The notes under the pieces were generated by a model, which was not told where the DNA came from, did not search any database, and saw nothing but the letters and a program-made list of their open reading frames with translations. Position numbers and translations under genes: made by a program. Below, piece by piece: positions 403 to 10,000 of a stretch of DNA of 64,000 bases. Each line of letters starts with the position of its first letter. Position 1 is the first letter of the stretch. Source of the stretch: an uncultured Aquabacterium sp. (GTDB lineage Bacteria > Pseudomonadota > Gammaproteobacteria > Burkholderiales > Burkholderiaceae_C); contig NZ_CAJYGK010000160.1 of NCBI RefSeq assembly GCF_913773725.1, positions 1 to 64,000 of the forward strand. Direction: 5' to 3'.

Positions 403-912
403 TCAATACTTAAAATCGGCTCCCAGCTTGAAGCGATAGAAGTAAGTTGTATCCCAGAGAATCAGCTCGTTCTTGCCGCGATAGATTGAAGAGCCTTGTA
501 AGAGCTTGCATGGCGATTCGTCGATCTGCTTGGTGGACTGCTTGATCGTGAGCTCGTCTTTCCAGTCAACTATGGCTGTCTTCAATTTGTTTGAAAGAAA
601 TGCGTCGAGACTTTTTCGTCCGCCCATGTCGTCTATCAAGTCAGCGAGCAAACGGTCCATCTTGAAAGGTTTGATCTTTTCAATCTGGTAATCGCACCAT
701 TCGCCGTTGAAGACAATTTTCTCGCTGCTGACAGTAATGGCTGCCACGTCGGCTGTGCGATTCGCCGGATTTTCGAGATAGGGGTGAATGGTTGCCGGAG
801 GCTTGATGGGGGCTGCGATATGAGTAAGCCAATATGTCTGCTCAGCTTGCGATTGGCAGCCCGTCATAAGGTAAAAGAAAGCAACCGCAAGCGGCTTGTA
901 AAAGCAATTCAT
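403..912 (-). CDS. Small lipoprotein, probable immunity protein of the adjacent T6SS effector
   Basis: 169 residues. The N-terminus is a short hydrophobic signal ending in an atypical lipobox (LMTGC), so the mature protein is probably lipid-anchored and faces the periplasm. The mature part has only two further cysteines (in EWCDY and SPCKL), possibly a disulfide. I recognise no named family. The gene starts 9 bases after the stop of the peptidoglycan-hydrolase gene and is the third gene of a vgrG-effector-lipoprotein series. In T6SS islands, immunity proteins against periplasm-acting effectors sit in this position and carry export signals. Base composition is clearly AT-richer than the window average, as for the effector. 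The immunity role is inferred from position, compartment and composition, not from homology. Confidence 0.6.
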   Translation of the reverse strand: MNCFYKPLAVAFFYLMTGCQSQAEQTYWLTHIAAPIKPPATIHPYLENPANRTADVAAITVSSEKIVFNGEWCDYQIEKIKPFKMDRLLADLIDDMGGRKSLDAFLSNKLKTAIVDWKDELTIKQSTKQIDESPCKLLQGSSIYRGKNELILWDTTYFYRFKLGADFKY

Positions 913-921
913 TTGCTGTTC

Positions 922-2646
922 TCAGTGCGTGGAGTCGTAGTTGGCCCGTAAAAACATTGCGTTTTCCTGCTGCCGTCGGATGGTTAAGCCCTTGTTTCCG
1001 TTGTTTGTGATGTCGAGGAACTCGACGGCTGCTTCACTGTACTGAAGAGCGTTGACCTTCCTGCACAAATTTGGTGCTTTACGGATGAGGTCTCCGATGT
1101 TGAAGGCGAGCGAACACAGCGCATCGAACTCATGCTGAAGAAGAGGGGCTGTAATCGCTCGCTTGACGATGTTCTCATGTTTTCGTCTGTCTTCTTCAAA
1201 GAGTTCTTGCGCAGCCTCTTTTGTGATGCTTGTGCCAATTTTTATATTCTGACTGGCACACGACGTTTTCCCGCCGGTGAGGTGCCCCCAACCCACGGTG
1301 CAGTATCCGAGGTGGTCTTCATAGTATGCGAGTCGCAGCTTCTCATAATCCTTGATGAAGGCTTCCCCAGCCTCGGAAAGGCGAAGGCTGGTTGCCGGCT
1401 TCCGCTCCCCCGCGTCCGCTTTAGCGAGGCTCGGGGCTCCCTCTTTGAAGGTGTTTAGATAGCCCTCTTGAAGAATTGCCAACGGGTCGACTAAGTCGGA
1501 CCTTCTCGAGTATTCGCCACCTGCGGATAAATTGTCTGCATTGTCCAATCCTGCTTTCCCGCTGAACAGCTCAAAGTGAAGCATCGACACATTTTTGTTC
1601 CGTGTCACCACGATTTTTTTGCCGCTGCCGTCTCGGAGGATTCCTGTCTTTCCGATGACCTCGCCTTGAGCAACGCGGTCCCCCTTTTTCAGTCTGATGG
1701 ATTTTGGATCAAGTTCGCCATATCGCACAATGAACTCTCGTCCATCAGTGGTGGTGTGTCTGATGCTCACCTGATCGGTTGCGCAGTAAAAAGGGGAAAC
1801 TCTAAGCACGATGCCGGCTGCGATGGAGTAGACCTCGGTTAGGTCGACTGCATACAAGTCCCGTCCAGCATGACGCCGTATTCCTCCACCTTGCCTTTTT
1901 CGGGTGGCGCCGAAGCAGGCTGCATTGGGGGAGTGGATTTTACGCCAGTCATTCCAGGAGAAACTGCCGCCCGGTTCATTGAGCGGCTTGACGCTGAACG
2001 GGAATATCACTGCGGATTGCTCGGACGGCAAAGTCATTACCGGCTTGCCCTCCACATTGGTTTGATTCCTCGGGGTCGTACTTTGGCCCGTCGTGGTTGT
2101 CGGTGCCTTCTTGGCATCTATCGCCGAATGCGGAGGGGTGCCGACCGGCTTTGCATGCGGCTGAGGTTGCGTGCTACGGTTCTTGACAGGTGGGACTTTC
2201 AGGATTTGCCCAATGGAAAGAGCGTCCTTGTTCTGAATTTCATTGATCTTTGCAAGATAGTCGACGCCGATGTCGTACGCCTTTGCTATCCGGGAAAGTG
2301 TGTCTCCCTTTTTGACCACATACGTGCCCCGCAAGTAGAGACCCGGCGCTCCGGCGGGTTCTGCCGCAACCTTTGTCTTGATTTTGGGGCTCACCAACTT
2401 GATCGCCATGTCGTCCAGCCCTGCGAAGAACTTAGCGACCGGTTTCATCTGTTTGGTGACCCAGTGCTCGACGTGAACCACAAGATCTCGGCCTTGAGCA
2501 GAGGTGAACTCCAGAACACCAGATGCGTTGGTCGAAGCTCTGTGCCATACTCTGTCCGCTGATCGGATTTCTACCTGCAGCCCCTTGATAGGCTGATCCA
2601 GTATGTCCACCAGCAGTAACCTGACTTTGCTCTTGTTCGTTTCCAT
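922..2646 (-). CDS. Putative T6SS cargo effector: LysM, M23 peptidase-like and GH24 lysozyme domains
   Basis: 574 residues from the ATG at 2646 (the in-frame TTG at 2655 is less likely). Order of domains: a beta-rich N-terminal segment (about 10-90) resembling carboxypeptidase-regulatory folds; LysM (about 107-153, GTYVVKKGDTLSRIA); a Thr/Pro/Gln-rich linker; an M23-like metallopeptidase region (about 250-370) with H259-x3-D263 and LHFE at 356-359; and a C-terminal GH24 lysozyme domain with the catalytic spacing E435-x8-D444-x5-T450. The predicted action is cutting both peptide and glycan parts of peptidoglycan. There is no signal peptide, which fits delivery by the VgrG encoded 60 bases upstream. 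The M23 HxH motif reads MLH (M355), so peptidase activity is uncertain. The gene is AT-richer than its surroundings, a sign of transfer. Confidence 0.75.
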   Translation of the reverse strand: METNKSKVRLLLVDILDQPIKGLQVEIRSADRVWHRASTNASGVLEFTSAQGRDLVVHVEHWVTKQMKPVAKFFAGLDDMAIKLVSPKIKTKVAAEPAGAPGLYLRGTYVVKKGDTLSRIAKAYDIGVDYLAKINEIQNKDALSIGQILKVPPVKNRSTQPQPHAKPVGTPPHSAIDAKKAPTTTTGQSTTPRNQTNVEGKPVMTLPSEQSAVIFPFSVKPLNEPGGSFSWNDWRKIHSPNAACFGATRKRQGGGIRRHAGRDLYAVDLTEVYSIAAGIVLRVSPFYCATDQVSIRHTTTDGREFIVRYGELDPKSIRLKKGDRVAQGEVIGKTGILRDGSGKKIVVTRNKNVSMLHFELFSGKAGLDNADNLSAGGEYSRRSDLVDPLAILQEGYLNTFKEGAPSLAKADAGERKPATSLRLSEAGEAFIKDYEKLRLAYYEDHLGYCTVGWGHLTGGKTSCASQNIKIGTSITKEAAQELFEEDRRKHENIVKRAITAPLLQHEFDALCSLAFNIGDLIRKAPNLCRKVNALQYSEAAVEFLDITNNGNKGLTIRRQQENAMFLRANYDSTH

Positions 2647-2706
2647 GATTTTCAAGCGGCAGTTGCGAGTTCTCAGGCGCCCGTAAAGGCTTCTGGATAC
2701 CTACGT

Positions 2707-5700
2707 TCAGGCAATATCAGTGTCCACGTCGTCTTCTTCGGCGTGGTGCAACTCTCCGGTGTTGCTTCGGTAATCGCCATCGTCGCCGATCACTGCCCAC
2801 GCGCCGTCAGATCCCACCAGTACTTCAAATACCTCTGCAGCTTCGCGAGCCATTCTTGGGGTCTTGCCTGAAGACGATTCCACTTTGCCGTAGCTGACGC
2901 TTCCATCCGCGAACTTGGCCGTGAACTCCAGGTTGTCGGTCGGCTTGTTGAAGAACACGTCATGCACGTCCAGCGCAGCACTGAAGGCCGGTGTATGCGT
3001 CATAGGCAGTGTCAGCACCCCTGGCTTGGCCAAACGCAGACTGGCGCTGGCACTCCCCCCCGACGTCAACTCCTTCATCGCCGCCTTGAACTGCGCCATC
3101 CCGCTCGTGCCGATCTCGATGTTGCCGCCGTCGATCTTCACGTAGCCCCCGCCACCATTGAGCACGATGCGCGAGGGCGCCGAGATCACCACATCTGCCG
3201 AGGTGCTCTGCACGTCGACCGCCTTCAGCGCTGTCAGCGAAAACGCGCCGCTCTGCGCCTGCACGCTCACGTTGCCGCTGGCTGCATGCAGCTTCATGCC
3301 GACGTCCTTCACGGCGCGCTGTTCGTTCTTTGCTTCGCCGCGGGTGAACAGGCTGATGCCGGCTTTCACGGCCCAGGCCTGATGGCGCTGGGCGAGCAGG
3401 TTGGTGTCTTGCGCGGCGCTCAGTGTGGTGTGCTGGCCGGCGCTCAGCACCGTATGGGCCGGCGTCATGCCGGCGATGTCTCCGGCGGCGCTGGCCACCA
3501 GATCCGGTCGCTCGGTGACGGGGATGCTGCCGTGCCCGCCGCCAATGGGCACCACCTCGCCCGACGCGCCATCGGCTTCGCTGCCCTGGCCGTTGCCTTC
3601 CGTGCCTTTCAAGCTTTGCACCGTGGCCTGCAGGGCCTGGTGCGCCGGCAGTTTGTCGGCGTCGGCCTCGTTGGGCAGGTTGGCCAGGTGGGTGCGCGCG
3701 TTCGCGGCCAGCGATCGCACCAACTGAGCGTGGCTCGTGAGTTGAGCCTGTGCCTCGCGTGTGTCCATCGGGCGGGCCTGCGCACTGGTGCCGCCAGCGC
3801 GCGCAAAGCTCGACAGGTGCAGCCCCGAGGCGGCGCGCAAGGCGCCCTGCGCCAGGGTGTGCAACTCCAGCCCGTGCCCGCGGTGGGCCAGGCGCTGGTT
3901 GTCATGCTGTTGCAGCAGGTGGCCGATCTGCAGCCAGGTCTGGTTCTGGGTGGTGTGCGCCAGCAACCGCCCCTGCCCGGGCGTGTCGTCCAGCACGAGC
4001 TGGTTGTGACCGCCGCCGCCGGCCTGCGAGGCGTCCAGCGCCTGGCTCTTGAAGCCGCTCAGCGTCGCGGTGTGGGCGTGGCCCTCCAGTTCGCCGGCCT
4101 GCTGGCTGCCAGGGAACCACGCCGGTGCGTTGCCGGTGGCCGTGGCGCTGCCTGCAGCCATCTGGTTGCCCTGCGCATCGTCGGTGCCCTGGCCGTTGTA
4201 GGCTGCGCCCACCACCACCGGGCGGTCGATGTCGCCTTCAACGAAGCCGACGATGACCTCCTGGCCCAGGCGGGGAATGAAGACGCTGCCCCAGTTCTGA
4301 CCGGACCAGTCCTGCGCCACGCGCACCCAGGTGCCGGAGGCGTCGGAGGCGGGCGCGTTGTCGTCGGCGGGGGCACTGAGGCGGTGGCTGCTCTGGGCAC
4401 CGCGCTGCCAGTGGAACTGCACCTTGATGCGGCCGTCACGGTCGGTGTGCACCGGCTCGCCCAAACCCACCACCACGGCCGTCTGGGCCCCGTGCACCAC
4501 GGGCCGTGGGTGCAGCAGGCGGCCATCGACACCACGCAGGGGGGCACGCACGGGCACGCTGTGGCGCTGGGCCGTCAGCCGGGCGCGGTACAGCGGCGCA
4601 TCGGAGGCGTTTGCCTGCCCTTCGCCGCCCCCTGCGGCAGCCAGGGCGCCCAGCACGGCATCGCCCAGCAGGCGCTTCAATCCGGCCTGGGCGTCGGCCC
4701 CGAGGTTGTTGCGGGCCTCGTGCACCACGCCCAGCACCACGAACTGGTTCTCGGTGCTGCCGGTGCTCAGAAAGCCGGCATCGTGCTCGGCGTGCTCCTG
4801 CAGCGTGAAGGTGGTGGCCGGCGCCAGCGTGCGCACCGTGCCTTCGCCCACGAAGCGCTTGCGGGCAGCATCCAGCGATTGCATCTGCACCTGCGCGCGC
4901 CGTTCGGCCTGCGCGGGCGTTTCATAGGCGTAGGCGCCCGGCTGGTCGGCGTGGGCCAGGTCGAAAGGTTGGTCGTGGCCGGCCTCGCTGCTGGCACTGG
5001 CGCGGTGGTTGGCCACGGCCCGGTAGTCGAAGCTGGCGGTGTGCAGCGCGGCCGGGCCGACGCGGCGCACCCCGTGCCAGCGTGTGAGGCTGTCTTCCTT
5101 GAGCACGGCGCTGGCCTGGGTGAAGCGCACGCGCGGCTGGGCGTTGGGGCGGAAGGCCTCGTTGTGGTCGGCGATCACCAGGGTGTGGCGGCCCAGGTGA
5201 GGCAGGTCTGTGGGGCGCCCTTCGTGCTCGAACCAGGTGAACAGGCCTTCCTCAGCCCACAGGCGTTGCAGGAAGGCGAGGTCGGTTTCGTTGAACTGCA
5301 CACACAGCGAGCGGCGGGCGTAGACGCTGCGGTCTGCCAGGTCGAAGCGCCACGCAGGCATCAGCGTGCCCTGTGCAGCGTAGTCGGCCAGCACCGCTTC
5401 GGTGATGTCGAGCACGCTCATGTCCTGGAACACCCAGGCGTCGGTGCGGTGCCCCAGGAAGGCCAGCCAGGGTTCGATGCGCAGGCGGTAGCGGGCGTAG
5501 CCGCCATCGGCGCCCAGCAGTTCGAAGGCGGTGACGTGGCCGTGGAAGGGGCGCAGCGTGTCGGCCGTCAGCATTTCCAGCAGCACGGGCTGGCCCAGCA
5601 GATCGACGGGCGCCAGGTCAGCCTGCGTGCTGAGCGCCAGCAGGTCGATGCACTGTCCGGTCTGGGGGGGCACCTCAGCCTGATGGCCGATGCCGGAGGT

Positions 5701-5943
5701 GCCGGCGCGGTGCGAGGTGGGCGCGTGGTCGAGCGTGTCGGGCAGCAAGGCGGCCCCCGGGCCGATGCCTTCGTGGATGCGCACGCGTTCGGCCAGAAGC
5801 GTCTCGGGGCCCAGCGGGGTGTGCAGACGCAGCAGCCGGGTGTGCTGGTTGGGGCCGAAGGCGCTCAGCTCGGCCAGCAGGCCGCCGAGCGCGCGGCGCG
5901 CAGCGTCACCCAGGGCATGCTGGATGCCGGAATGGTCGGTCAT
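2707..5943 (-). CDS. vgrG: Type VI secretion spike protein VgrG with C-terminal extension
   Basis: 1078 residues from the ATG at 5943, preceded by AGGGA. Longer upstream starts give implausible Arg-rich N-termini. The protein follows the VgrG plan: gp27-like base (about 30-400), a gp5-like OB fold containing HTDRDGRIKVQFHWQRG and GSVFIPRLGQEVIVGFVEGD, a beta-helical DUF2345 needle region (VVISAPSRIVLNGGGGYVKI), then a further 120 or so residues ending DDVDTDIA. The extension is not enzymatic as far as I can see and probably docks the effector encoded next. VgrG trimers cap the Hcp tube and are fired into target cells. There are no other T6SS structural genes in the window, so this is likely an orphan vgrG island served by a T6SS encoded elsewhere. 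Confidence 0.93.
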   Translation of the reverse strand: MTDHSGIQHALGDAARRALGGLLAELSAFGPNQHTRLLRLHTPLGPETLLAERVRIHEGIGPGAALLPDTLDHAPTSHRAGTSGIGHQAEVPPQTGQCIDLLALSTQADLAPVDLLGQPVLLEMLTADTLRPFHGHVTAFELLGADGGYARYRLRIEPWLAFLGHRTDAWVFQDMSVLDITEAVLADYAAQGTLMPAWRFDLADRSVYARRSLCVQFNETDLAFLQRLWAEEGLFTWFEHEGRPTDLPHLGRHTLVIADHNEAFRPNAQPRVRFTQASAVLKEDSLTRWHGVRRVGPAALHTASFDYRAVANHRASASSEAGHDQPFDLAHADQPGAYAYETPAQAERRAQVQMQSLDAARKRFVGEGTVRTLAPATTFTLQEHAEHDAGFLSTGSTENQFVVLGVVHEARNNLGADAQAGLKRLLGDAVLGALAAAGGGEGQANASDAPLYRARLTAQRHSVPVRAPLRGVDGRLLHPRPVVHGAQTAVVVGLGEPVHTDRDGRIKVQFHWQRGAQSSHRLSAPADDNAPASDASGTWVRVAQDWSGQNWGSVFIPRLGQEVIVGFVEGDIDRPVVVGAAYNGQGTDDAQGNQMAAGSATATGNAPAWFPGSQQAGELEGHAHTATLSGFKSQALDASQAGGGGHNQLVLDDTPGQGRLLAHTTQNQTWLQIGHLLQQHDNQRLAHRGHGLELHTLAQGALRAASGLHLSSFARAGGTSAQARPMDTREAQAQLTSHAQLVRSLAANARTHLANLPNEADADKLPAHQALQATVQSLKGTEGNGQGSEADGASGEVVPIGGGHGSIPVTERPDLVASAAGDIAGMTPAHTVLSAGQHTTLSAAQDTNLLAQRHQAWAVKAGISLFTRGEAKNEQRAVKDVGMKLHAASGNVSVQAQSGAFSLTALKAVDVQSTSADVVISAPSRIVLNGGGGYVKIDGGNIEIGTSGMAQFKAAMKELTSGGSASASLRLAKPGVLTLPMTHTPAFSAALDVHDVFFNKPTDNLEFTAKFADGSVSYGKVESSSGKTPRMAREAAEVFEVLVGSDGAWAVIGDDGDYRSNTGELHHAEEDDVDTDIA

Positions 5944-6176
5944 GGTCGTCCCTGATGTGTCGGGCGCCCGTGTGCGGATGCACGGGCGCGCTGTATGGGG
6001 GCGACGGTATCGCAAAAGCCCGGCCGTCACGCGGCACGACCCCCGTCTGGGGGCGCCCGCTGCACCGGAAAAGTGCAAGCGTTTGTGTCCGGTGTGACGA
6101 GGTCTGGAATGGCGCGTGCTTGACACCCCTGGCCGCTTTGGCAAACTGGTTTCAGCGCCGTACACACCGAGGACCC

Positions 6177-7544
6177 ATGCAAGGCAAGTTACCGGGCAGT
6201 TTCAGCGAACTGGAGCACTGGCTCAACGAGCGGCGCGTGACCGAGATCGAATGCCTCGTCCCCGACCTGACGGGGGTGGCCCGCGGCAAGATCCTGCCGC
6301 GTCAGAAGTTCACCGAAGACCGCGGAATGCGGCTGCCGGAGGGCATCGTGGCCATCGGCGTGACGGGTGAGTTTCCGGCCAGCGGGCCGTACTACGACGT
6401 CATCACCCCGACCGACCGCGACATGCACCTGCAGCCGGATCCGGCGACGGTGCGCATCGTGCCGTGGGCGTCCGATCCGACCGCGCAGGTCATCCACGAT
6501 TGCTTCGACCGCGAGGGCAACCTCATTCCGTATGCGCCGCGTTCGGTGCTGCGGCGGGTGTGTCAGCTGTATGCGGACCGGGGCTGGTCGCCCGTGGTGG
6601 CGCCCGAGCTGGAGTTCTACCTGATCGAGCGGTCAACCGATCCCAACATGCCGCTGAGGCCGCCCCGGGGGCGCAGCGGTCGGGCCGAAACCTCGCGGCA
6701 GGCCTACTCCATCGACGCGGTCAACGAGTTCGATCCGCTGTTCGAGGACATCTACGACTACTGCGAGAAGATGGAGTTGAACGTGGACACGCTGATCCAC
6801 GAGGTGGGCGCGGGTCAGATGGAGATCAACTTCTTCCACGACCACCCGCTGGGCCTGGCCGACGAGGTGTTCTTCTTCAAGCGCACGATCCGCGAGGCGG
6901 CGCTGCGCCACGAGATGTACGCCACCTTCATGGCCAAGCCCATGGCCAACGAGCCGGGCAGCGCCATGCATGTGCACCAGAGCGTGGTCGACACGGCCAC
7001 CGGGCAGAACATCTTCAGCAACCCGGACGGCAGCCCGTCGAAGGCGTTCTACTGGTTCATCGGGGGGCTGCAGCGCTATGTGCCCGCGGCCATGGCGCTG
7101 ATGGCGCCCTACGTGAACAGCTACCGGCGCCTGGTGCGCGCCACGGCCGCGCCCATCAACATCCAGTGGGGCGCGGACAACCGCACCGTGGGCTTCCGTT
7201 CGCCCGTGGCCACCCCCGCTTCGCGGCGCATCGAGAACCGCGTCATCGGGGCCGATGCCAACCCGTATGTGGCGCTGGCGGCCACGCTGGCCTGTGGCTA
7301 CCTCGGCATGGTCAAGCAGATCGAGCCGTCGCCGGAATGCCGGGGTGACGCCTATCTCGGGGACTATGGCCTGCCCCGCAGTCTGGGTGAGGCGCTGGCC
7401 CTGCTGCGCGACGAAGCCGACCTGGCCGAGGTGCTGGGACACGAGTTCGTCACGGTCTACACCGAGATCAAGGAAGTCGAGTACGCGGAATTCATGAAGG
7501 TGATCTCGCCCTGGGAGCGTGAACACCTGCTGCTGCACGTGTGA
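6177..7544 (+). CDS. puuA: Glutamate-putrescine ligase (gamma-glutamylputrescine synthetase)
   Basis: 455 residues, glutamine-synthetase fold. PuuA joins glutamate to putrescine using ATP, the first step of the glutamylated putrescine route. Seen: the Glu-rich metal site (APELEFYL, GAGQMEINFF), the ATP-binding stretch KPMANEPGSAMHVHQS, and NRTVGFRSP. The protein lacks the adenylylation features of housekeeping GlnA and is shorter. The start at 6177 follows GAGG; an in-frame extension upstream has no support. It is the first gene of a unit continuing with potFGHI 190 bases downstream, which makes a polyamine substrate the natural reading. A TTGACA at 6120-6125 could be a -35 element, but no good -10 follows it. 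Confidence 0.88.
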   Translation: MQGKLPGSFSELEHWLNERRVTEIECLVPDLTGVARGKILPRQKFTEDRGMRLPEGIVAIGVTGEFPASGPYYDVITPTDRDMHLQPDPATVRIVPWASDPTAQVIHDCFDREGNLIPYAPRSVLRRVCQLYADRGWSPVVAPELEFYLIERSTDPNMPLRPPRGRSGRAETSRQAYSIDAVNEFDPLFEDIYDYCEKMELNVDTLIHEVGAGQMEINFFHDHPLGLADEVFFFKRTIREAALRHEMYATFMAKPMANEPGSAMHVHQSVVDTATGQNIFSNPDGSPSKAFYWFIGGLQRYVPAAMALMAPYVNSYRRLVRATAAPINIQWGADNRTVGFRSPVATPASRRIENRVIGADANPYVALAATLACGYLGMVKQIEPSPECRGDAYLGDYGLPRSLGEALALLRDEADLAEVLGHEFVTVYTEIKEVEYAEFMKVISPWEREHLLLHV

Positions 7545-7733
7545 GCCGACCGACGCCGGCTGCTGCGCCGGCCTGCTTCTTGCAGGACCCGTGGCGTGGC
7601 TGCCGGGGTGCGGCGGCGACGGTCGGTGCGGCATGGGCGCCACAGCGGCACGTCACAATTTCAGTTTGAGGACCCGCCCCGAGTCGGGGCACACACGACA
7701 TTGTTCGCCCCCGTTGGGCTGGAGATGACGACC

Positions 7734-8858
7734 ATGCGTTTGAAGACGAGTGCGATGCCTTCCTGGGGCAAGCTGATGAGCTGTCTGGGGCTGAGCCTGG
7801 CGGTGGCTTTCGGGGCCCACGCCGAGGAAGAGAAGGTGCTCAACATCTACAACTGGTCGAACTACATCGCGCCGGACACGATTGCCAACTTCGAGAAGGA
7901 GACCGGCATCAAGGTCCGCTACGACGTGTTCGACAACAACGAGATCGTGCACGCCAAGCTGGTGGCCGGCAAGACGGGCTATGACATCGTCGTGCCCTCG
8001 TCGTACTGGGCCAAGCTGCAGGCCGATGGCGGGCTGCTGCAGAAAATCGACAAGAGCAAGATCCCGAACTGGAAGAACCTCGATCCGGCCATCCTCGCGC
8101 AGCTGGGGCGGCTCGACCCGGGCAACCAGTACATGGTCAACTGGATGTGGGGCTACACCACGGTCGGCATCAACGTGGACAAGGTCAAGGCCGCACTGGG
8201 CAGCACGCCCATGCCCGACAACGCCTGGGACCTGATCTTCAAGCCGGAGTACATCAGCAAGCTCAAGAGCTGTGGCGTGTCCTTCCTGGATTCGCCCACC
8301 GAGGTGATCCCGGCGGCGCTGCACTACCTGGGCAAGCCGGCGTACTCGAAGAACATCGCCGACTACCAGGCCGTGCCGCCGCTGCTGAAGACCATCCGCC
8401 CGTACGTGACGCTGTTCAGCTCGAGCGGTTACATCAATGACCTGGCCAACGGGCAGCTGTGCGCGGTGTTCGGCTACTCGGGCGACATCAACATCGCCAA
8501 GAACCGCGCGATCGAAGGCAAGACGGGCCAGAACATCCAGACGCTGACGCCCAAGACCGGCGGCGTGATCTTCATGGATTCGATGGTGATCCCGGCCGAT
8601 GCGCCGCACCCCGACAACGCCCACAAGTGGATCAACTACATCCTGCGTCCCGAGGTGCATGCGGGCCTGAGCAACAAGGTGTTCTACGCCAACCCCAACC
8701 TCGCGTCGCGCAAGTTCATCAAGCCCGAAGTGGCCAATGACCCGGCGGTGTTCCCGCCCGAGGCCGAGATGAAGAAGATGGCGCAGCCCGAGGCGCTGAA
8801 CAACGACATCCGCCGCCAGATGACGCGCATCTACACGTCCTTCAAGACCGGCCTGTAA
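7734..8858 (+). CDS. potF: Periplasmic polyamine-binding protein of an ABC transporter (PotF/SpuD type)
   Basis: 374 residues with a Sec signal peptide cut after GAHA. The mature protein starts with VLNIYNWSNYIAPDTI, the hallmark opening of PotF/PotD/SpuD-type polyamine receptors, and continues with YDVFDNNE and KTGYDIVVPSS. It would bind putrescine or a longer polyamine in the periplasm and pass it to the PotH/PotI channel. I chose the ATG at 7734 because GGAG lies nine bases before it; the in-frame ATG at 7725 directly touches that GGAG. The potG gene follows after 8 bases. Substrate preference (putrescine or spermidine) cannot be told from sequence alone. Confidence 0.9.
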   Translation: MRLKTSAMPSWGKLMSCLGLSLAVAFGAHAEEEKVLNIYNWSNYIAPDTIANFEKETGIKVRYDVFDNNEIVHAKLVAGKTGYDIVVPSSYWAKLQADGGLLQKIDKSKIPNWKNLDPAILAQLGRLDPGNQYMVNWMWGYTTVGINVDKVKAALGSTPMPDNAWDLIFKPEYISKLKSCGVSFLDSPTEVIPAALHYLGKPAYSKNIADYQAVPPLLKTIRPYVTLFSSSGYINDLANGQLCAVFGYSGDINIAKNRAIEGKTGQNIQTLTPKTGGVIFMDSMVIPADAPHPDNAHKWINYILRPEVHAGLSNKVFYANPNLASRKFIKPEVANDPAVFPPEAEMKKMAQPEALNNDIRRQMTRIYTSFKTGL

Positions 8859-8866
8859 AGAACACG

Positions 8867-10000
8867 ATGAACAGCAGGACAGGGGAGGGCTACCTGGTCA
8901 TCGACCGGGTGGTGAAGGACTTCGTGAGCCCGGACGGCGGCAGCTTCCGGGCGGTGGACAACGTGTCGCTGTCGATCCGGCAGGGTGAGATCTTTGCCTT
9001 GCTGGGCTCGAGCGGCTGCGGCAAGACGACGCTGCTGCGGATGCTGGCGGGCTTCGATGCGCCCACATCGGGGCGCTTGATGCTGGGCGGTCAGGATCTG
9101 GCCGGGCTTGCGCCGTACGAGCGGCCGATCAACATGATGTTCCAGAGCTATGCGCTGTTTCCGCACCTCAGCGTGTGGGACAACATCGCGTTCGGCTTGA
9201 AGCGCGAAGGCATGCCGCGCGCCCAGATGGCCGAGCGGGTGGAGGCCATGTTGAAGCTGGTGCAGCTGACGAAGTTCGCGCAGCGCAAGCCGCACCAGCT
9301 GTCCGGCGGGCAGCAGCAGCGGGTGGCGCTGGCGCGCAGCCTGGCCAAGCAGCCCAAGCTGCTGTTGCTGGACGAGCCGCTGGGCGCGCTCGACAAGAAG
9401 CTGCGCGAAGAGACGCAGATCGAGCTGGTCAACATCATCGAGTCGGTGGGCGTGACCTGCGTGATGGTGACGCACGACCAGGAAGAGGCCATGACCATGG
9501 CCAGCCGCATCGGCATCATGAGCGAGGGCCACATCCTGCAGGTGGGCTCGCCGCACGAGGTGTATGAGACGCCGTCGACGCGCTTCGTGGCCGACTTCAT
9601 CGGCAACGTCAACCTGATGGACGGCACGCTGGTGGTGGACGAGGCCGACCACTGCGAGGTGGCCTGCGCCGACGTGCGGCACTTCGTGGGCCACGGCATC
9701 ACGGGCCACGAGGGCATGGCGGTGACGGTGGCGCTGCGCCCCGAGAAGATCCGCATCGGCAAGCGGCCACCCGAGCCCCAGGCCGGCGAGCCCGCGGGGC
9801 CGTTGAACATGGTCAAGGGCACGGTGAAGGACATTGTGTACTTCGGCGACAGCACGGTGTACCACCTGGCCCTGCCCAGCGGGGCCGTGCTGAAGGTGAG
9901 CCAGGGCAACACGCAGCGCCACGTCGACGACGCGCTGACCTGGGGCGACGAAGCCCATGCCAGCTGGGCCCCGTCGGCCCAGGTGGTGCTGACGCAGTAA
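8867..10000 (+). CDS. potG: Polyamine ABC transporter ATP-binding subunit
   Basis: 377 residues. Walker A GSSGCGKTT, Q-loop MFQSYALFPH, ABC signature LSGGQQQRVALARSL and Walker B LLLLDEPLGALD are all intact, followed by the switch His in VMVTHDQEEAMTMA. The C-terminal third (from about 270) is the TOBE-type regulatory domain usual in PotA/PotG. It powers import by the PotF-PotH-PotI complex from the cytoplasmic face. The gene lies 8 bases after potF and 10 bases before potH, so the four genes are surely cotranscribed. The ribosome-binding site is weak, suggesting coupling to potF translation. Confidence 0.92.
   Translation: MNSRTGEGYLVIDRVVKDFVSPDGGSFRAVDNVSLSIRQGEIFALLGSSGCGKTTLLRMLAGFDAPTSGRLMLGGQDLAGLAPYERPINMMFQSYALFPHLSVWDNIAFGLKREGMPRAQMAERVEAMLKLVQLTKFAQRKPHQLSGGQQQRVALARSLAKQPKLLLLDEPLGALDKKLREETQIELVNIIESVGVTCVMVTHDQEEAMTMASRIGIMSEGHILQVGSPHEVYETPSTRFVADFIGNVNLMDGTLVVDEADHCEVACADVRHFVGHGITGHEGMAVTVALRPEKIRIGKRPPEPQAGEPAGPLNMVKGTVKDIVYFGDSTVYHLALPSGAVLKVSQGNTQRHVDDALTWGDEAHASWAPSAQVVLTQ

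Follow-up and report, generated by a model that had tools for sequence, protein, structure and literature searches.

The window, a 64,000-nucleotide stretch of contig NZ_CAJYGK010000160.1 from an uncultured Aquabacterium sp., very probably encodes an effector-immunity module of a type VI secretion system (T6SS) close to its first nucleotide. The module is formed by three genes of the minus strand: vgrG, a peptidoglycan hydrolase gene that follows after a gap of 60 base pairs (bp), and a small lipoprotein gene that follows after a further 9 bp. A first-pass annotation made from the sequence alone had described this order and spacing correctly, and had proposed that the hydrolase is a T6SS effector and the lipoprotein its immunity protein. 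Comparison with other genomes supports the proposal through the co-occurrence of the two protein families, the adjacency of their genes, and a gradient of divergence along the locus. A T6SS effector with M23 and lysozyme domains and an exported immunity protein is known in kind from Salmonella enterica subsp. arizonae and Aeromonas veronii. The parts that appear new, as judged from sequence, are the cross-phylum M23 subfamily with a substituted active site and the immunity family, which neither Pfam nor NCBIfam matches. The module contains the following features:

2707–5943, minus strand: vgrG, spike protein and presumed carrier, 1078 amino acids (aa), recognized by Pfam and TIGR matches.
922–2646, minus strand: putative T6SS cargo effector, 574 aa, with a predicted immunoglobulin-like (Ig-like) N-terminal domain, LysM, M23 variant, and GH24 lysozyme.
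2377–2646, minus strand: effector residues 1–90, an all-strand domain predicted by the structure model, with a loading role suggested by Tae17.
2191–2322, minus strand: LysM, residues 109–152 (PF01476, 54.2 bits).
1441–2031, minus strand: M23-variant domain, residues 206–402, with H259, D263, and H357 kept, and E311 and M355 at the expected catalytic histidines.
964–1353, minus strand: GH24 lysozyme, Pfam match at residues 432–561, with E435, D444, and T450.
403–912, minus strand: exported putative immunity protein, 169 aa, the short single-domain form of its family (12 relatives; AlphaFold2 model).
856–912, minus strand: signal peptide with lipobox LMTGC, read from the sequence; Cys19 would be residue 1 of the mature protein.

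The hydrolase and lipoprotein families occur together. Among 42 genomes of the genus, searched with expectation values (E) of up to 1e-40 for the hydrolase and up to 0.001 for the small protein, both families are present in the same two genomes, that of the window (G000) and G012, and are adjacent in both. Among 65 Burkholderia genomes, the hydrolase (E up to 1e-25) is present in five, in four as a full gene and in one as a 3′ fragment, and the lipoprotein family in eight, including all five; the chance of this overlap is 6.8e-6 if the genomes are independent, which they are not. The lipoprotein family occupies 12 places in Burkholderia. Four are 20–25 bases, match to match, from a full hydrolase gene, four are beside a degraded 3′ end of the hydrolase gene (G453:C3, G471, G492, and G465), and two are additional downstream copies at loci of this kind (G442 and G465). 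The hydrolase remnants match at 84% over 284 bases in G453:C3, at 80% over 145 bases in G471, and at 51% over 41 residues in G492, where there is a stop. Ten of the 12 places, or eight without the weak case of G465, are therefore at a live or decayed hydrolase, and persistence of the lipoprotein gene beside a decayed toxin gene is as expected of immunity genes. A prevalence of lipoprotein homologues away from such effectors, named by the first-pass annotation as the observation that would speak against a pair, is not seen in either survey.

The order vgrG, hydrolase gene, small gene recurs in G012, at the loci L005, L006, and L007, in G458, and on plasmid pBPHY01 of Paraburkholderia phymatum, with a PAAR gene next in L006 (PF05488, E 6.5e-24). 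Beyond these surveys, at least one of 399 genomes, the window's own, passes an order-wide effector search at E 1e-60, and the lipoprotein family is found in two among 61 relatives. Further pairs, outside the counts given, are suggested by contigs of equal length among the effector and the lipoprotein matches (19536, 8236, 4834, 3411684, and 3890087). A contig scan with the lipoprotein alignment A1 gave 33 pattern matches, none of which was confirmed. The effector search of plasmid records returned one match, that of P. phymatum; the search with the window lipoprotein returned none, despite the family member on the P. phymatum plasmid, and is too weak to show absence.

The genes of the module diverge at different rates. 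Identity to the syntenic locus of G012 decreases from 98.5% in the flanking glutamine synthetase-like gene, which adjoins the module there too, to 90.2% in VgrG, 74.3% in the hydrolase, and 39.0% in the lipoprotein. Within the hydrolase, residues 1–105 are 91.4% identical, LysM 83.6%, the M23 domain 68.0%, and GH24 73.8%. The conserved N-terminus of the hydrolase fits a role in loading, and the fast divergence of the small protein fits a role in immunity. The guanine-cytosine (GC) content is 53.6% in the effector gene and 48.0% in the lipoprotein gene, as opposed to 68.3% in the window. It is very improbable that the hydrolase is a housekeeping or apparatus-associated enzyme that cuts peptidoglycan, comparable to TagX of Acinetobacter, with the lipoprotein as its regulator. 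M23 and lysozyme domains also act in wall remodelling, and TagX, a peptidoglycan hydrolase, is reported to be required for T6SS assembly (PMC5061870). However, the window hydrolase has no signal peptide by reading of its sequence, it is carried by only two of the 42 genomes of the genus (T6SS presence in the other 40 was not counted), and the pair shows a low GC content and a steep divergence.

The VgrG protein matches Phage_GPD (246 bits), T6SS_Vgr, DUF2345, and TIGR03361 (327 bits). The hydrolase gene starts with the ATG at 2646, matching the length of 574 aa of many relatives, and its product matches the Pfam families LysM at 54 bits, Peptidase_M23 at 40.6 bits (against a cut-off of 28.7), and Phage_lysozyme at 93.7 bits. 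The earlier description of a LysM/M23-like/GH24 protein without a signal peptide is borne out, with the refinement that the M23-like domain, which scores above the cut-off and has the M23 fold, has a substituted active site. No hydrophobic leader is seen at the N-terminus, which is polar by reading and enters a beta strand at residue 5 of the model; no dedicated signal-peptide predictor was run. Residues 1–90 have no Pfam match above the cut-off, and in the model they form the strands 5–13, 24–29, 32–38, 44–50, 53–60, 67–75, and 79–85. A similar arrangement is described for Tae17, which is paired with VgrG17 in Acinetobacter baumannii, where an Ig-like domain at residues 1–88 precedes LysM at 112–155, and both appear to be required for binding the C-terminus of VgrG (PMC11796386). 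Tae17 has two wall-cutting domains, like the window effector, but in its case one is a lytic transglycosylase and the other a Tae3-like amidase (PMC11796386).

In M23 peptidases, the HxxxD motif and the last histidine of the HxH motif are zinc ligands, whereas the histidine of the YxHL motif and the first histidine of HxH are catalytic. The window domain retains the zinc-ligand residues, and both catalytic positions are substituted, by glutamate and methionine. E311 aligns with the histidine of the "xHL" motif of the solved M23 enzymes 2hsi, 6yj1, and 6jn1; M355, which lies outside the solved-structure alignments, is presumably at the position of the first HxH histidine. Residues were counted in 106 sequences (the 47 toxin loci described below, P0013–P0070, and the window's), of which all but L048 and P0067 could be aligned, giving 104. 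The set holds a few duplicates (for example, P0013 is the window protein and P0018 is L051), gaps are excluded from the counts, and P0071–P0132, which match over at most 33% of the query and mostly in the LysM part, are omitted. The M23 domain is invariant at H259 (102/102), D263 (102/102), H297 (103/103), E311 (103/103), M355 (101/101), and H357 (101/101). The constancy of E311 and M355 was not produced by the search words, because the patterns of the genome scan lacked both sites; the relatives were nonetheless picked by similarity. That the substitutions are the same throughout while the zinc ligands are retained speaks for an altered site that still functions, and against a decayed one; the domain may instead have a non-catalytic role. 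The literature search found no mention of the substitution, which is not a claim of its absence from print.

A reading in which the M23 variant has lost catalysis and serves to scaffold or activate, as the LytM domain of EnvC does, leaving the killing to the lysozyme alone, is somewhat unlikely. E311 and M355 replace the catalytic histidines in every relative with a residue there, the LytM domains of EnvC and DipM are among the fold matches, and the endolysin domain of the S. arizonae effector is reported to impair growth by itself (PMC12992299). Such a role is opposed by the invariance of H259, D263, H297, E311, and H357, and by toxins of Gilliamella and Helicobacter that end with this domain, have no detected GH24, and almost always precede an exported-looking gene. 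For this last reason, the M23 variant is probably toxic by itself. GH24 is detected in 81 of the 106 sequences, with the triad residues E435 in 81/81, D444 in 79/81 (Asn in two), and T450 in 81/81; the flavobacterial toxins L019 and L043 have Asn at the equivalent of D444.

Neither Pfam nor NCBIfam gives a match to the 169-aa protein, even at E values as high as 1. In its AlphaFold2 model, which is confident with a predicted local distance difference test score of 84.5, the signal helix is followed by strands with three helices; fold matches are weak (the META/HslJ fold was among those considered). Among 17 aligned sequences, including the window's, the positions P49, G70, C73, F83, G97, F105, C135, L138, Y159, and F161 are invariant, and the constancy of C73 and C135 suggests a disulfide between them. 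The first-pass annotation had called the protein a lipoprotein, and it does have the leader and lipobox. As a family trait the designation does not hold: a simple pattern finds a lipobox in eight of 17 short relatives and in one of 46 long Burkholderia-type relatives, some with truncated starts. Export is therefore the common trait and lipidation is not. In this count, P0003, whose start is apparently misplaced, and the short-started P0007 are scored as lacking the lipobox, and the 114-aa fragment P0011 is omitted.

A small lipoprotein next to a hydrolase, together with a GH24 fold that is closest to phage and prophage endolysins, could also indicate a phage-type lysis cassette captured beside vgrG, with an endolysin and a spanin-like outer-membrane lipoprotein aiding lysis. 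This origin is extremely improbable, since the hydrolase begins with a predicted Ig-like domain and LysM directly after vgrG, the lipoprotein is a folded domain of 169 aa with two invariant cysteines and a confident model, nine of the 17 short relatives (one with a doubtful start) have no lipobox, and the lipoprotein gene outlasts the hydrolase gene at decayed loci.

The long relatives from Burkholderia, of about 267 aa, have an extra C-terminal LprI-like domain, which matches PF07007 below the 22-bit cut-off (18.5 bits, E about 0.003) in two of the three scanned proteins and not in the third. Because of this extra domain, 15 of 54 matches in Burkholderia and Paraburkholderia carry the NCBI name "lysozyme inhibitor LprI family protein". 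The earlier claim of a new family thus holds for the absence of Pfam and NCBIfam matches, but not for these relatives, which were already named. The LprI-like domain and the names would suit a general inhibitor of lysozymes from elsewhere that stands here by chance or convenience. This is quite improbable, because Pfam finds no LprI domain in the window protein (E up to 1) and the family tracks one effector. An LprI-domain protein is a predicted T6SS immunity protein of a LysM effector in Salmonella Dublin (PMC8867033), which is a precedent for the Burkholderia relatives, whereas that effector has 290 aa and is of the transglycosylase type, and the window protein lacks the domain.

Under the effector-immunity reading, the effector, which lacks an export signal, would load onto the VgrG spike, probably via the N-terminal Ig-like domain, as the example of Tae17 suggests, and would be fired into the periplasm of a neighbouring cell. 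There, LysM would anchor it to peptidoglycan and GH24 would cut the glycan strands, while the M23 variant, with its zinc ligands kept and one catalytic histidine replaced by glutamate, may attack a peptide or amide bond or assist the lysozyme. The 169-aa protein would be exported to the periplasm of the producer, here tethered to the membrane by a lipid, and would form a small domain of alpha/beta fold, with a disulfide probably stabilizing it, that blocks the effector. It may block both domains, a possibility somewhat below an even chance, by analogy with TsiP and TseP of Aeromonas dhakensis, where a single immunity protein blocks a zinc-dependent amidase and a lysozyme (PMC11893102). Blocking of the M23 variant only is a plausible but doubtful alternative, and blocking of the lysozyme only is rather unlikely. 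The analogy has bounds: the zinc-site residues of TseP are predicted elsewhere (H19, H23, H109, H339, and H359 among them), and the available description of TseP mentions neither LysM nor M23 (PMC11893102). No chain named TseP is among the 60 solved chains listed. Double-blade WHIX effectors are reported to require two immunity proteins (PMC12135965).

The toxin family is not confined to Burkholderiales. Scanning 84,980 species genomes with the effector alignment yielded 46 loci. Full-length forms of the effector are found in Burkholderia. In Enterobacterales, Aeromonas, and Flavobacteria, a different N-terminus precedes the part corresponding to residues of about 205–574. Gilliamella, Chryseobacterium, and Helicobacter are among the taxa in which only the M23 part is present, by itself or with a different tail. 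A crude test for exported partners, which takes open reading frames (ORFs) of at least 130 aa that start from 23 bases before to 107 bases after the toxin stop, finds an exported-looking downstream ORF at 42 of 47 toxin loci (the 46 and L051). Of the misses, L022, L023, and L050 show such an ORF by eye with no ATG in reach (the start codon was unchecked), and none was seen at L039 and L048. The partner survey leaves out the Acinetobacter-type and Caballeronia relatives (P0049 and P0052–P0063). In L008 (Yersinia vastinensis), toxin genes in tandem (979–4086 and 4982–8092) have one exported-looking gene (4094–4951) between them. In Helicobacter, two small exported-looking genes (~140–160 aa) follow the M23-variant toxin at L046 (981–1469 and 1512–1955) and L041 (7623–8102 and 8248–8673); these toxins have no detected lysozyme domain, and partners elsewhere are of roughly 270 aa.

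The downstream proteins of four groups share a C-terminal domain (hhalign 93.1–97.9) that the window protein lacks. The pooled profile of their N-terminal parts aligns with the window protein with a provisional score of 34.6 and probability of 55.6, which none of 100 column shuffles reaches (maximum 16.5); the full-length pooled profile gives, also provisionally, 27.6 and 11.3 (shuffle maximum 18.2). This is a provisional hint that the N-terminal domain of the enterobacterial, flavobacterial, and Gilliamella partners is that of the window protein.

Published systems were set beside the window by description and architecture and not by sequence. The closest is SARI_02625/SARI_02624, encoded in Salmonella pathogenicity island 21 of S. 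enterica subsp. arizonae (PMC12992299). Like the window effector, SARI_02625 combines M23-type and endolysin domains, the latter with the E-9-D-6-T spacing (E890, D899, and T905, corresponding to E435, D444, and T450), and SARI_02624 is a Sec-exported immunity protein encoded after the effector. The pair is backed by competition and co-expression experiments, and its T6SS-dependent secretion is described as not yet shown (PMC12992299). Unlike the window effector, SARI_02625 has a long N-terminus with a reported EF-hand and, in the available excerpts, no mention of LysM or of the M23 substitution, and SARI_02624 has 276 aa as opposed to 169 (PMC12992299). A Trabulsiella protein of the scan (L050), also of 1032 aa, has its M23 match at 722–799 and lysozyme match at 890–1019, near the published positions 719–795 and 882–1024 of SARI_02625; Pfam did not find an EF-hand in it. 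In A. veronii C4, Tse2 is likewise an M23 and lysozyme-like effector, and its pairing with Tsi2 is backed by toxicity, co-expression, and mutant competition assays (PMC11014884); the A. sobria locus L017 is a likely relative of this Tse2 by architecture only. Tse4 (Tpe4) of A. baumannii is described as a bifunctional LysM and M23 protein encoded downstream of vgrG, with a predicted signal-peptide immunity protein, but it has 812–848 aa and combines lytic transglycosylase and endopeptidase activities (PMC5061870, PMC6833914, PMC10433429). Other M23 effectors of T6SS have been reported (PMC5061870, PMC6833914, PMC10763514). A literature search on T6SS effectors of Aquabacterium returned matches with titles on other subjects, and one on the combination of VgrG, LysM, M23, and phage lysozyme in type VI secretion returned none.

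Several observations weigh against the effector-immunity reading. The exported-ORF test is also passed by 107 of 229 control ORFs (130–360 aa, from the same loci and not all of them genes). The profile of the enterobacterial partners alone scores 23.7 against the window protein, which one of 100 shuffles matches, and the other comparisons are noise (0.4 to 1.5). The hydrolase remnant of G465 comprises only 17 residues (E 0.008) and is weak by itself, and no effector remnant was detected at a tandem pair of lipoprotein-family genes on G453:C2. With its substitutions, the M23 site may have no activity, and the rescue by SARI_02624 is reported as only partial (PMC12992299).

If the reading is true, a function is assigned to an immunity family that Pfam does not list, and an immunity protein may grow by adding a lysozyme-inhibitor domain when its toxin has two blades. 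The M23 subfamily, so far labelled as plain M23 or as a "hybrid motif" domain, would then have a rewired active site. A broader proposal is tentative: a cross-phylum subfamily of M23 toxins may use Glu311 as a working site with its own bond specificity and spread by swapping delivery domains, and may be met by one ancient immunity domain, extended with the LprI domain in Burkholderia or with another C-terminal domain in Enterobacterales, Bacteroidota, and Gilliamella, of which the window protein would be the minimal form.

The description of vgrG as an orphan agrees with the rest of the genome. TssC (VipB), the only core gene searched, is present in both G000 and G012, and its single match in G000 (450 bits) is on contig C100 and not on that of the module. 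Further vgrG matches of G000 are on yet other contigs (C53:129452-130456 and C91:6329-7393). Flanking the module, positions 6177–10000 of the window hold the glutamine synthetase-like gene and genes of a putrescine/spermidine-type transporter, named by reading the sequence. The first-pass annotation had placed the end of an insertion sequence (IS) after the lipoprotein gene. The element is there, but it is 275 bp from the lipoprotein stop and does not abut the module:

1–127, no strand assigned to the feature: terminus of an IS3-family element, at the edge of the contig, matching IS3-family elements on plasmids and at four further places of G000.

This end is the 5′ end of an ORF on the minus strand, MKKSRFSEEQIIGFLRQA. 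Its copies or relatives in G000 (C69:1-127, C149:4-128, C23:421-544, and C100:110630-110711) are 74–100% identical and lie partly at contig edges, so that assembly breaks may fall on the element.

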